Shown piece after piece: positions 35,400-39,850 of a stretch of 41,276 bases of DNA. Where the stretch lies: assembly GCA_903874275.1 (NCBI GenBank), contig CAIQRS010000245.1, positions 1 to 41,276 of the forward strand, read 5' to 3'. The translations under genes and the position numbers were made by a program. This stretch comes from an uncultured Anaeromyxobacter sp. (lineage in GTDB: Bacteria; Myxococcota; Myxococcia; Myxococcales; Anaeromyxobacteraceae). The notes below the pieces were generated by a model, which ran no database searches, had not been told where the DNA came from, and saw only the letters and a program-made list of their open reading frames with translations. Positions within the stretch are counted from its first letter, which is position 1; each line of letters begins with the position of its first letter.

Positions 35400-35415
35400 C
35401 CGGTCACTCCCCGTG

Positions 35416-37179
35416 ATGGGCGTCGGCCCACGGGCATTCCTCTACCGCCTCCGCTGCCTGCTCAAGCGGCGCGAGGTGGACGTCTGGTACGACCCGGCCT
35501 ACCGGCTCCCCTTCACCGGACTGGAGTTCTCCGGACTCGACACCCGCCGCGCCGACTTCGCGGCCTGGTGGCTCTCCGAGAGCAAGGCCATCGCCGGTTC
35601 CTGGTGGCGCTCCCCCCGGCGCGCATCCTACGCCGAGCTGGCCCGCGTCCACGACGCGGCGCTCCTCGAGTCGATGTCCCGCCCGGAGAACCTGGCCGCG
35701 GTCTTCGGCGTGGACCCCTCCGACGTCCCGGTGGACGAGGTGATGCGCACCGTCCGTCTCGCCACCGGCGCCACCATCCAGGCCGCCGGCGAGGCGCTGC
35801 GCCGCGCCAGGCCCCAGCTCAACCTGCTCGGCGGCTTCCACCACGCCGGCCCGTCGTCCGCCGGCGGGAACTGCCCGGTGAACGACATCGCCGTCGCCAT
35901 CGCCTCGGTACGTCTCGACGGCTTCGATGGGAAGGTGGCCGTCCTCGACCTCGACGCCCATCCGCCCGACGGCGTCGCGGCCTGCCTCGCCTCCGATCCG
36001 AACCACTGGATCGGCTCCATCTCCGGATCCGACTGGGGCCCGCTCCCCGGGGTCGACGAGGTCGTGCTGCCCGAGGGCACGGGGAACGCCCGCTACCTGG
36101 ACGAGCTGGGCGCGCTCCTCCGGCGGATGCCCCCCGCCGGCCTCGTCTTCGTCATCGCCGGTGGCGACGTCCTGCGCGGCGACCGCATGGGGAAGCTCGA
36201 CCTCACCCTGGGTGGAGCACGCATGCGCAACGTGGCCGTGGCCGCCCACCTGGAGGGCGTCCCGTCGGTCTGGCTGCCGGGCGGCGGGTACAGCCGGAAC
36301 GCCTGGAAGGAGCTGGCCGGCGTGGGGCTGGCCCTCTCCACCGGATCGCTCGACCCGATCCCGGAGGACTACGACCCCATCGGAAAGCGATTCGCGGGGA
36401 TCGCGGCCCAGCTGTCGAAGCAGTCCCTCTCCGACTCCGCCGGGTTCACCGGGGAGCTCACCGCCGACGACCTCGCGGAGTCGCTGGGGATGCGCCCCAC
36501 CCGCCAGCGCCTGCTGCTCGGCTTCTACACCGAGGCCGGCATCGAGTTCGCGCTGCAGCGCTTCGGCATCCTCGACCAGCTCCGGCGCCTCGGCTACGAC
36601 CACTTCCGCGTCGAGTTCGGCAGCCAGTTCCCGGGCGAGCTGATCCGCGTTCACGGAGAGTCGGACGGCAAGGAGCAGGTGCTCATGGAGCTGGTGCTCG
36701 AGCGCAAGCGCGTGGTCGGGCACCCGGTGCTCTACGTCCACTGGCTCTCGCTGCGCCACCCCCGCGCCCAGTTCAGCCTGCTGCGCCCGCGGCTGCCCGG
36801 ACAGGAGGTCCCGGGGCTGGGGCTGGCCCGCGAGACCGGGGAGTTGCTCGCGCTCATGGCGCTCCGCCTGCAGCTCAGCGGCGTCGTCTACCGGCCGGCG
36901 CACCACCACACCGCCTTCGCCGGGCGGCACCACTTCTCCTTCGTGGACGCGGCGCGCCAGGGGCGCTTCGAGGCGCTCATCCGGGACCTCGGCGACATGC
37001 CGCTCCTCGAGGCCACCCGCGCCGTGGACGAGGGCCGGGTCTTCCTGGACGGGAAGCGCTACGCCTGGGAGCCCGACGAGATGGTCCTCTGGCTCCGCGA
37101 GCACCCCGAGGAGCGCGGCGAGGTCGCGCTCGAGCGGGAGCGGGCGCGCTTCTCCCTCGGGCCACCGGCGCCCCTTTGA
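35416..37179 (+). CDS. histone-deacetylase-fold protein with unknown C-terminal domain
   Basis: 587 residues from ATG 35416 (a GTG lies directly before it). The first 310 residues are an HDAC/acetylpolyamine-amidohydrolase fold: VDVWYDPAYRLPF; the catalytic His pair in GGFHHAGPSSAGGNCPVNDIA (near 142-143); metal ligands in VLDLDAHPPDG (Asp180, His182) and AGGDVLRGD (Asp251); and the transition-state Tyr in PGGGYSRNAW (near 292). All active residues are present, so it is probably catalytic, on an acetyl-lysine, acetylpolyamine or similar amide. Residues 320-587 contain no motif I know; they have strands such as EQVLMELVLERKRVVGHPVLYVHWLSL, two His-rich turns (PAHHHTAFAGRHHFS) and a charged C terminus. 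I do not know a named family with this layout. Confidence 0.75.
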   Translation: MGVGPRAFLYRLRCLLKRREVDVWYDPAYRLPFTGLEFSGLDTRRADFAAWWLSESKAIAGSWWRSPRRASYAELARVHDAALLESMSRPENLAAVFGVDPSDVPVDEVMRTVRLATGATIQAAGEALRRARPQLNLLGGFHHAGPSSAGGNCPVNDIAVAIASVRLDGFDGKVAVLDLDAHPPDGVAACLASDPNHWIGSISGSDWGPLPGVDEVVLPEGTGNARYLDELGALLRRMPPAGLVFVIAGGDVLRGDRMGKLDLTLGGARMRNVAVAAHLEGVPSVWLPGGGYSRNAWKELAGVGLALSTGSLDPIPEDYDPIGKRFAGIAAQLSKQSLSDSAGFTGELTADDLAESLGMRPTRQRLLLGFYTEAGIEFALQRFGILDQLRRLGYDHFRVEFGSQFPGELIRVHGESDGKEQVLMELVLERKRVVGHPVLYVHWLSLRHPRAQFSLLRPRLPGQEVPGLGLARETGELLALMALRLQLSGVVYRPAHHHTAFAGRHHFSFVDAARQGRFEALIRDLGDMPLLEATRAVDEGRVFLDGKRYAWEPDEMVLWLREHPEERGEVALERERARFSLGPPAPL

Positions 37180-37366: not shown

Positions 37367-38761
37367 ATGAGAATCAGGCTCGGCATCGCAGCACTCGCCG
37401 CGGCGACGCTCCTCGCCCCCACGGCCGGCCACGCGAGCGAGTTGGAGGTCTACTCCAACACGCAGCTCAACGTGCAGTCGCAGTGGCGCGACGGGGCGAC
37501 CACCAACGTCGTCCCGCTCTACGAGTTCCTGACCCTCACGGGGCGTGAGGTCTCCATCCCCGGAGGGCAACTCTATTTCCAGGTGGACGGCTGGGGCGCC
37601 GCCAACCTCGGCGCAAACCCCTGGTGGAACGGCTACACCAACAGCGGCGCGATGAGCGGCGACCTGAACCAGGCCTGGGTCCAGGGGCGCTTCCTGCAGA
37701 ACCAGCTCCAGTTCACGCTGGGCCGGCAGACCGTGGGCTACGGCAACGCGCGGATGCTCCAGCTCGACGGCGGGTCGTTCCACGTGGCCATCCACAAGAT
37801 GGTCACCGTGGACGCCTACGTCGGCGTTCCCACCACCCAGCGCTTCACCGCCTACGGAAGCCTCTTCTCGGCCAACCCCACCATCGGCAACCTGGCCGTG
37901 GGCGGCCGGGTCGGCTTCGCCTGGACCACCTGGATCAACACCGGCATCTCGGCCGCCTTCGCCTGGGACAGCGGCGCCTCCACCCGCGAGGACATCGCCT
38001 TCGACCTCCGCTTCTCGCCGGTCTCCTGGATGTACCTGCTCGGCTACGTGGACTGGAGCCTCTACGCCGCCAACTACTTCAACGGGTTGGGCGGACAGAT
38101 CGCCGACTCCAACCTGAGCCTGGTCTTCCCGGTCGCCCCGCACCTGCAGTTCACCGGCGAGTACACCTACTCGGTCCCGGCGCTCGCCCTTCCTTACAAC
38201 TCGATGCTCTGGGTCTTCACCGACAACACCTCCCAGTACGCCGGCGCCACGGCCCGGGTCGGGCTCGAGTTCTTCAAGGTCAAGGTCCCGATCGACTTCG
38301 AGGTCGGCTACCGGCGAATCTTCGAGAACTGGAGCGACTTCGGGAGTTCCAGCGCAGGGAACCGTTACTTCCTGCGCTCCACCTGGAACCCCACCAAGAC
38401 GGCCTCGGTGGGCGCGGAAGGTTCCCGCCTCTTCCTGGCCCCGCTGGCCGGCAGGCCTTCGGGCGGGGTGACCCCGTACCTGCCGTCGGAGGGTTACTGG
38501 CAGGCGCGGGCCTTCGGCTCGCTCAAGATGTACGGGTTCACCGGGACGCTCGACTTCCAGGGGTACTGGTTCGACGCGCCGGTGAACGCCGTGTCGCAGT
38601 CGATCATCGGGTCGGCCACGCTCGGCTACGACGTCGGCGGCGGCTTCGCGGTGGTCGGCGCCCTGCAGGGCGGGTCCACGCCCTACTACTCGAGCTACGT
38701 GAACGGGCTCGTCAAGCTCACCTACAACGCGTCGTACCGGTTCCGCGAGGTGTACGAATGA
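37367..38761 (+). CDS. outer-membrane porin of a porin-cytochrome pair
   Basis: A 464-residue exported beta-barrel. ATG 37367 has GGAAG upstream and gives a clean signal peptide (RIRLGIAALAAATLLAPTAGHA, cleavage before SELEV); ATG 37355 adds four residues. The mature protein is Cys-free, rich in aromatic and Gly residues, and made of repeated strands such as ELEVYSNTQLNVQSQW, FTLGRQTVGYGNARM, WMYLLGYVDWSLYAANYF and FAVVGALQGGS. It ends in the terminal strand signature ASYRFREVYE. The next gene, a 12-haem lipoprotein, overlaps by 4 nt. This is the arrangement of outer-membrane electron conduits of metal-reducing bacteria, where the porin holds the cytochrome. Bases 37180-37366 upstream show no clear promoter. 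Confidence 0.8.
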   Translation: MRIRLGIAALAAATLLAPTAGHASELEVYSNTQLNVQSQWRDGATTNVVPLYEFLTLTGREVSIPGGQLYFQVDGWGAANLGANPWWNGYTNSGAMSGDLNQAWVQGRFLQNQLQFTLGRQTVGYGNARMLQLDGGSFHVAIHKMVTVDAYVGVPTTQRFTAYGSLFSANPTIGNLAVGGRVGFAWTTWINTGISAAFAWDSGASTREDIAFDLRFSPVSWMYLLGYVDWSLYAANYFNGLGGQIADSNLSLVFPVAPHLQFTGEYTYSVPALALPYNSMLWVFTDNTSQYAGATARVGLEFFKVKVPIDFEVGYRRIFENWSDFGSSSAGNRYFLRSTWNPTKTASVGAEGSRLFLAPLAGRPSGGVTPYLPSEGYWQARAFGSLKMYGFTGTLDFQGYWFDAPVNAVSQSIIGSATLGYDVGGGFAVVGALQGGSTPYYSSYVNGLVKLTYNASYRFREVYE

Positions 38762-39780
38762 ACCCCCGGCTCCTGCTCCTGCCCCTCGTCCTCCTCGCCT
38801 TCGGCTGCCAGAAGCCGGCCGTGAAGGCCGAGAACGCGGCGCCGCAGCCCTACAAGTTCCCGCACGGGATCCACGTCGAGTCGGGGGTGGCCTGCGTGGA
38901 CTGCCACGCGCCGATCCTGAAGGCGTCGGCCCTCAGGGAAGGCGTCATCAGCGTCCAGATCCCGACCAAGTCGGAGGTCTGCGCCGCCTGCCACGACCCG
39001 ATCCCGGACTACAAGCCGGTGCAGCGTTTCACCCCGGTGGTCCACTTCGACCATGCCGCCCACCTCCCGCGCCAGAAGGGCGTGAAGGACGAGTGCCAGG
39101 GCTGCCACTCCAAGATCGCCGAGCCGGGCTCGTTCGACGTCGCGGTGCCGCCCATGGCGACGTGCACCGCGTGCCACAACCACGCCCAGGACTACGCGGT
39201 GGGGCGCTGCACCCCCTGCCACACGGACCTGAAGCAGTACGCCAGGCCGACGAAGGACTACTCGCACGAGGCCAACTTCCTGGCCACGCACGGCAAGTGG
39301 GCGCTCGCGTCCGTGGCCTCCTGCTCCTCCTGCCACGACCAGACCATGTGCGCCCAGTGCCACACGGCGACGACACGCCCCATGCCGCCCTCGATCCAGT
39401 TCCCCGAGAAGGTCACGGCGAGCTTCATCCACCGCGGCGACTGGATCTCCCGCCACGCGGTCGAGTCGTGGGCCGATCCCACGAGCTGCACGAAGTGCCA
39501 CGGGACCGGCTACTGCCAGAGCTGCCACTCGTTCCAGGGCGTTGGCTCGATCGCCGGTGGGGGGCGCAACCCGCACCCGGACAGCTGGCTCACCTTCCAC
39601 GGCCAGGCGGCGCGTCAGAACATCGTGTCCTGCGCAAGTTGTCACCAGGGCGCCCGTCCGAGCTGCGTGAACTGCCACGGCTCGGCCAATTTCCGCAGGA
39701 ACCCGCATCCTCCCTCGTGGAAGGGCACGCGGGAGCAGATCGCCGCCAACCAGATGTGCCAGGTGTGTCACATGCCGTAG
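38758..39780 (+). CDS. dodecahaem c-type cytochrome lipoprotein
   Basis: A 340-residue protein, ATG 38758 overlapping the porin stop (ATGA). The signal peptide NPRLLLLPLVLLAFGC ends in a lipobox-like LAFGC, so it should be lipid-anchored. Twelve CxxCH haem sites are present in order: CVDCH, CAACH, CQGCH, CTACH, CTPCH, CSSCH, CAQCH, CTKCH, CQSCH, CASCH, CVNCH and CQVCH. Extra histidines (FPHGIHVE, HFDHAAHL, DYSHEANFLATHGKW, SFIHRGDW, SRHAVE, LTFHGQAAR, NPHP) supply the axial ligands. Several follow the H-x(n)-CxxCH spacing of NrfH/decahaem-type chains. It probably carries electrons across the outer membrane through the adjacent porin. No periplasmic partner cytochrome is in the window. Confidence 0.93.
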   Translation: MNPRLLLLPLVLLAFGCQKPAVKAENAAPQPYKFPHGIHVESGVACVDCHAPILKASALREGVISVQIPTKSEVCAACHDPIPDYKPVQRFTPVVHFDHAAHLPRQKGVKDECQGCHSKIAEPGSFDVAVPPMATCTACHNHAQDYAVGRCTPCHTDLKQYARPTKDYSHEANFLATHGKWALASVASCSSCHDQTMCAQCHTATTRPMPPSIQFPEKVTASFIHRGDWISRHAVESWADPTSCTKCHGTGYCQSCHSFQGVGSIAGGGRNPHPDSWLTFHGQAARQNIVSCASCHQGARPSCVNCHGSANFRRNPHPPSWKGTREQIAANQMCQVCHMP

Positions 39781-39850
39781 GTGTGCGCGGTGAGCGGCGG
39801 ATCGCCTTCGTTCCGGTGTGCGCGCTGATCGGCGGATCGCCTTCGTTCCG
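39781..39850. repeat. 35-bp tandem direct repeat after the cytochrome gene
   Basis: Two units, 39781-39815 and 39816-39850, start GTGTGCGCG and share GGCGGATCGCCTTCGTTCCG; they differ at about three positions. They follow the cytochrome stop codon directly. Confidence 0.85.

Follow-up and report, generated by a model that had tools for sequence, protein, structure and literature searches.

The gene pair and its surroundings

The DNA analyzed here (the window, 41,276 nucleotides) is contig C245 of the source genome, designated G000 (5.07 Mb in 285 contigs, 98.9% complete), and the two named relatives that were found for this genome are uncultured Anaeromyxobacter MAGs. Two genes on the forward strand lie close to one end of the window, and the coordinates (37367-38761 and 38758-39780) and the 4-nt overlap given for them in a preliminary description of this DNA are exact to the base. 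The features of the pair are as follows.

37367..38761, + strand: gene for a predicted outer membrane barrel, the putative porin-like component of a porin-cytochrome (Pcc) conduit; ATG start, 464 aa, no Cys, signal-peptide-like N-terminus (open reading frame and translation)
38758..39780, + strand: gene for a lipoprotein-type multiheme cytochrome c; ATG start, 340 aa, 12 CxxCH motifs (translation, Pfam, the 31-sequence alignment A1 and conserved His)
38758..38761, + strand: ATGA overlap of 4 nt between the barrel and cytochrome genes (gene ends from open reading frames and translations)
38797..38808, + strand: predicted lipobox A-F-G-C (A14-F15-G16-C17) of the cytochrome (translation, and the count of the pattern in relatives)
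38893..39771, + strand: stretch with the 12 CxxCH heme motifs; the 12 conserved free His are also in this stretch or immediately ahead of it (positions and conservation of motifs and His)

Translational coupling of the barrel and cytochrome genes through the ATGA overlap is likely. Of the frames of at least 60 aa (stop-to-stop) in the window, the cytochrome gene alone has more than one CxxCH motif, and a gene for an outside lipoprotein cytochrome, as in the Pcc clusters of Geobacter, was not found in the window, where the contig ends 1.5 kb past the pair. The flanking genes encode unrelated housekeeping functions according to Pfam: those upstream are for a histone-deacetylase-like protein, an inositol monophosphatase family phosphatase and an M23 peptidase, and downstream on the opposite strand is a Mur ligase-like gene. 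The histone-deacetylase-like protein (588 aa; PF00850, 3.3e-28; window positions 35413-37179) is encoded on the same strand directly upstream of the pair. Two tandem copies of a 35-nt direct repeat, 94% alike (39780-39849), start at the last base of the stop codon of the cytochrome gene; a promoter and terminator scan gave no site of either type, and thus no terminator-like site at this repeat.

The first gene encodes a predicted beta-barrel

The 464-aa translation was confirmed to contain no Cys, as the preliminary description had claimed, although this is not universal, as the barrels of five of 33 relatives have one Cys past residue 25. Neither Pfam nor NCBIfam gives a match for the protein at E values up to 1, and Pfam gave only scattered weak matches with the 33 barrels, the commonest being LptD, in two members. 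Its hydrophobicity alternates every two residues, however, with a mean moment of 0.90 over the 33-sequence alignment, compared to 0.64 ± 0.05 (maximum 0.76) in 200 shuffles, and it is from this strong alternation that we infer a beta-barrel, despite the lack of a family match. About 20 alternation peaks are seen in the alignment, which is a crude count and not a topology. Searches of solved structures by sequence, using both the barrel and the barrel profile, gave nothing useful and no matching solved barrel, and AlphaFold models of the barrel and the cytochrome, each alone and with three sequences each, had pLDDT values of 27.1 and 31.5. The idea of another barrel copy in G000 was rejected, since a search at E values up to 10 returned the window gene and a single weak match (E 0.53).

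The second gene encodes a twelve-heme cytochrome

All 12 of the CxxCH motifs that had been reported for the cytochrome were counted in its 340-aa translation, and a chance origin is rejected because 2000 shuffles of its residues gave a mean of 0.12 motifs and at most two. Pfam identifies the protein by Cytochrome_C7 (2e-19) together with other generic multiheme models. Among the 31 aligned relatives, 11 of the motifs are present in all 31 sequences and the first in 30, while 11 free His are conserved in 31 of 31 and His273 in 28 of 31. Twelve conserved free His for 12 hemes suit bis-His ligation at every heme, and such ligation throughout would indicate an electron wire with no open catalytic heme rather than an enzyme. 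The heme density, one per 28 aa, is close to that of MtrA (10 per 333 aa). The match of the cytochrome profile to the structure 6r2q_A, which we take to be MtrA from its length of 333 residues, the label of the file being different, is weak (E 1.3e-4), and many unrelated multiheme cytochromes match equally well. Close paralogues of the cytochrome in G000 were rejected, the only match being a partial one on contig C283 (E 7.7e-4).

The N-terminus of the cytochrome reads as a lipoprotein-type signal with Cys17, and the lipobox pattern is matched by 18 of the 19 cytochromes of the same family (including that of the window) and by eight of the 12 others in alignment A1. The protein is predicted to be exported and is probably lipid-anchored. 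This pattern counts against a conduit in which the cytochrome fills the barrel, as it also fits a surface protein. Outside cytochromes are usually lipoproteins, and G000 contains many other multiheme frames (61 matches to PF14522), so that the 12-heme lipoprotein could be an outside, OmcB-like cytochrome and the periplasmic wire that fills the barrel could be encoded elsewhere. On the other hand, the protein is short and heme-dense and does not have the large non-heme domains of outside cytochromes. Its genomic distribution also bears on this alternative, as described below.

The two genes remain together across families

Homologues of the barrel were found in 39 of 145 genomes of the order and, with the alignment as query, in 59 of 195 genomes of the phylum. 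Loci were fetched from 37 of the 38 other genomes of the order that have a barrel, with G020 left out, and it is to these 37 loci that the pairing counts refer. The preliminary description had proposed the co-occurrence of the two genes as a test of the conduit, and the pair held up well: in 35 of the 37 loci a cytochrome homologue adjoins the barrel on the same strand, and the other two (L050 and L071) are on contigs that end within the barrel gene. The cytochrome of L067 is truncated where its contig stops, and in L046 the locus script missed a barrel that both homologue searches report there. The junction was measured in 26 relatives and is a 4-nt overlap in seven, a 1-nt overlap in 18 and, in the remaining one, a 47-nt gap where the start is uncertain. 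In the Anaeromyxobacter-like family, designated f1, all 20 of the cytochromes that are not cut have 12 motifs, while outside f1 there are 13 motifs in 11 cytochromes and 12 in three. The two-gene conduit is thus a stable and old arrangement and not an accident of assembly.

These data bear directly on the proposal that the two proteins share an operon and form no complex, the barrel being a porin of the ordinary kind and the cytochrome a soluble carrier in the periplasm. The fact that the barrel matches no known family model of conduit barrels is in favor of this proposal, but pairing in 35 loci and overlaps of 1 or 4 nt in 25 of 26 junctions have been maintained even though the barrels of other families are only 24-32% identical to that of the window. 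Conserved pairing and overlap across families that have diverged to this extent are hard to explain without a joint function, and we regard this proposal as very improbable.

Candidate outside cytochromes are linked in relatives and unlinked in G000

Two families of companion cytochromes recur near the pair in relatives. The four members of the first that were scanned with NCBIfam all match TIGR03507, the OmcA/MtrC-family decaheme model, two of them above its cut-off (L037 and L064) and two below (L039 and L069), and six members of the second match TIGR01904 (CxxxxCH/CxxCH) over the cut-off. Outside f1, at least one OmcA/MtrC-type or CxxxxCH companion is present within the fetched DNA in 15 of 16 loci, at a distance of several kb from the pair in L045, and the sole exception (L041) is a contig of just 5.2 kb. 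Inside f1 a companion is present in four of 21 loci (L052, where it was assigned by a BLAST match, L054, L064 and L065), and some of the other loci are on short contigs. In a tree of the 27 rows that have both proteins, the nine rows labeled linked (the labels linked, partly and alone are our own) all fall to the same side of a single branch (support 76/98). The tree has no root, however, and contains several open forks and long branches, and so does not distinguish loss of linkage from its gain.

This pattern, in which the 12-heme protein is near-constant with the barrel while its OmcA/MtrC and CxxxxCH neighbors come and go, argues against the 12-heme protein being the outside cytochrome, as does the fact that other families encode outside-type cytochromes alongside it as separate genes. 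In other conduits it is for the periplasmic partner that near-constant pairing has been published (PMC4245776; PMC8805035). An outside location of the 12-heme protein is therefore considered unlikely, and the reading that it is the wire of the barrel is preferred.

A search of the genome for a partner cytochrome, as had been suggested at the outset, revealed homologues of both companion families, and hence candidate outside partners, on other contigs of G000. Contig C36 encodes an OmcA/MtrC-family decaheme that scores over the family cut-off, and two partial decahemes of this family are on contigs C226 and C67, the ends of which share 141 identical bases, so that these probably represent one split gene. 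The 25 matches to TIGR01904 in G000 are on contigs C36, C105, C174 and C270. When the companions from the relatives were compared by BLAST with 12 chosen multiheme frames of G000 (E up to 1e-8), matches were obtained with 12 of 14 frames of the decaheme group, the exceptions being L039 and L069, and with all 14 of the CxxxxCH group. Such unlinked cytochromes of G000 may dock on the barrel of the window.

Other large multiheme genes were also observed in G000. A frame of 2506 aa on contig C270 (L138:4205-11722) has 55 CxxCH and 11 CxxxxCH motifs, begins with a lipobox-like sequence and runs off the end of the contig; the protein with 40 hemes reported from strain 2CP-C (PMC2330069) has fewer hemes than this motif count. 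A frame with 26 CxxCH motifs on contig C128 (L140:4421-6760) is followed by another multiheme frame, and these are similar by motif count to the 26-heme/16-heme operon reported in Geobacter, Anaeromyxobacter and ANME partners (PMC5539420). Contig C105 (L133:3992-11929) contains four consecutive frames on the same strand with 10, 9, 8 and 10 CxxCH motifs, each with a lipoprotein-like start.

A broader reading, which we put forward tentatively and at slightly less than even confidence, is that the barrel and the 12- or 13-heme cytochrome of the Myxococcota form a core, with no relation to MtrAB according to the family models applied, onto which interchangeable cytochromes of the surface dock and which works with OmcA/MtrC-type decahemes and CxxxxCH lipoproteins. 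The Anaeromyxobacter family would have unlinked these genes and would use a 12-heme instead of the mostly 13-heme wire, which would be lipid-anchored. If this is true, one core is served by several unlinked outside cytochromes. The OmcA/MtrC and CxxxxCH genes linked to the core elsewhere in the Myxococcota suggest which proteins could be its partners in Anaeromyxobacter; this linkage was not found in the open-access library searched and is a modest addition to the known picture.

Proposed function of the pair

The pair is very likely a two-gene Pcc conduit of the Anaeromyxobacter family in which the 12-heme cytochrome serves as a wire in the bore of the barrel. The barrel would be situated in the outer membrane. 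After export the cytochrome, which is probably anchored by a lipid, would lie within the bore of the barrel as an insulated wire in the manner of MtrA. Periplasmic cytochromes would feed electrons into one end, and these would exit at the cell surface either directly to soluble or shuttled acceptors or via surface lipoprotein cytochromes (OmcA/MtrC-type decahemes and CxxxxCH multihemes) that are encoded elsewhere in the genome. The preliminary description had likewise proposed a porin-cytochrome conduit, and this is still the best reading, but the two options that it set against each other, a minimal conduit and a partner encoded elsewhere, are not exclusive, and both are supported.

Electron flow is expected to be outward, in metal respiration. 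The conduit could instead run inward and oxidize outside donors such as Fe(II), as is thought for PioAB and MtoAB, and clusters that have no outside cytochrome are indeed typical of iron oxidizers. Anaeromyxobacter, however, is a metal reducer, and in other families the pair has linked genes for OmcA/MtrC-type decahemes. In addition, the abundance of the Pcc protein Adeh_3392 is reported to be higher during Mn(IV) reduction (Nissen, 2012, cited in PMC4245776). Inward flow thus appears quite unlikely, and outward transfer remains the preferred direction.

Comparison with known conduits

The closest known systems are the pcc clusters of Anaeromyxobacter dehalogenans 2CP-1 and 2CP-C and of Anaeromyxobacter sp. 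K, which consist of just two genes encoding a porin-like protein and a 12-heme cytochrome, were likened to mtr clusters lacking mtrC, and were suggested to cross the membrane in the way that MtrAB does (Shi et al., 2014; PMC4245776). The window resembles these, including that of 2CP-C with Adeh_3392, in its gene pair, protein sizes, 12 hemes, absence of an outside cytochrome gene from the cluster, and single cluster per genome. The cytochromes of the published two-gene clusters have 338-344 aa and 12 hemes, or 14 in Kuenenia (PMC4245776), and the window has a porin-like gene, assigned as a barrel by beta alternation only, adjoining one for a cytochrome of similar length with the same number of heme motifs and a lipoprotein-type export signal. 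Homology to the published proteins is seen through the pair in G014, which is probably 2CP-C, but it is distant, with 31% identity between the barrels and 42% between the cytochromes (344 aa in G014), and the genus labels differ (g1 for the window, g2 for G014). A further difference is that the window cytochrome has a predicted lipobox while the published Anaeromyxobacter Pcc cytochrome was termed periplasmic (PMC4245776). The minimal conduit suggested in the preliminary description has published precedents and is not an unusual form.

Membership of the pair in the Mtr group was rejected on two family models, neither of which matches the pair. TIGR03509 (MtrB/PioB-family barrel) gave no match in G000 at an E value of 0.1; the window barrel is shorter than this model (464 aa vs 662 positions). 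TIGR03508 (MtrA/DmsE family) is absent from the matches of the window cytochrome at an E value of 1, and none of the 42 places listed for it in G000 is over the cut-off, the window cytochrome not being among those listed. The pair nevertheless shares its proposed mode of action with MtrAB of Shewanella, MtoAB of Sideroxydans and PioAB of Rhodopseudomonas palustris, the latter two of which also combine a barrel with one heme-dense cytochrome (about 330-340 aa) and have no outside cytochrome linked to them. The pair is not Mtr by two family models but probably works like Mtr. By itself, MtrAB has been described as the smallest unit that crosses the outer membrane, and iron oxidizers have conduits lacking MtrC (PMC7096707). 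In Sideroxydans and R. palustris, clusters of the MtrAB type are reported to have no outside cytochrome (PMC7096707; PMC8805035). MtrAB has also been viewed as the core to which outside cytochromes were added (Baker et al.; PMC8805035), and in the Desulfobacterota mtrC is found apart from mtrAB (PMC12133095).

The conduits of Geobacter were compared by description. OmbB-OmaB-OmcB of G. sulfurreducens is like the window pair in combining a barrel with multiheme cytochrome in one operon for electron transfer at the outer membrane, but the Geobacter Pcc has separate inside (8-heme) and outside (12-heme) cytochromes (PMC4245776). The Ext conduits (extABCD, extEFG and extHIJKL) have more genes than the window pair, and, like it, depart from the pattern of one inside and one outside cytochrome, with outside parts that vary more than inside parts (PMC6148476). 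The two-gene kind of conduit was already described in 2014, and the pair in the window is a divergent and mostly ordinary member of it.
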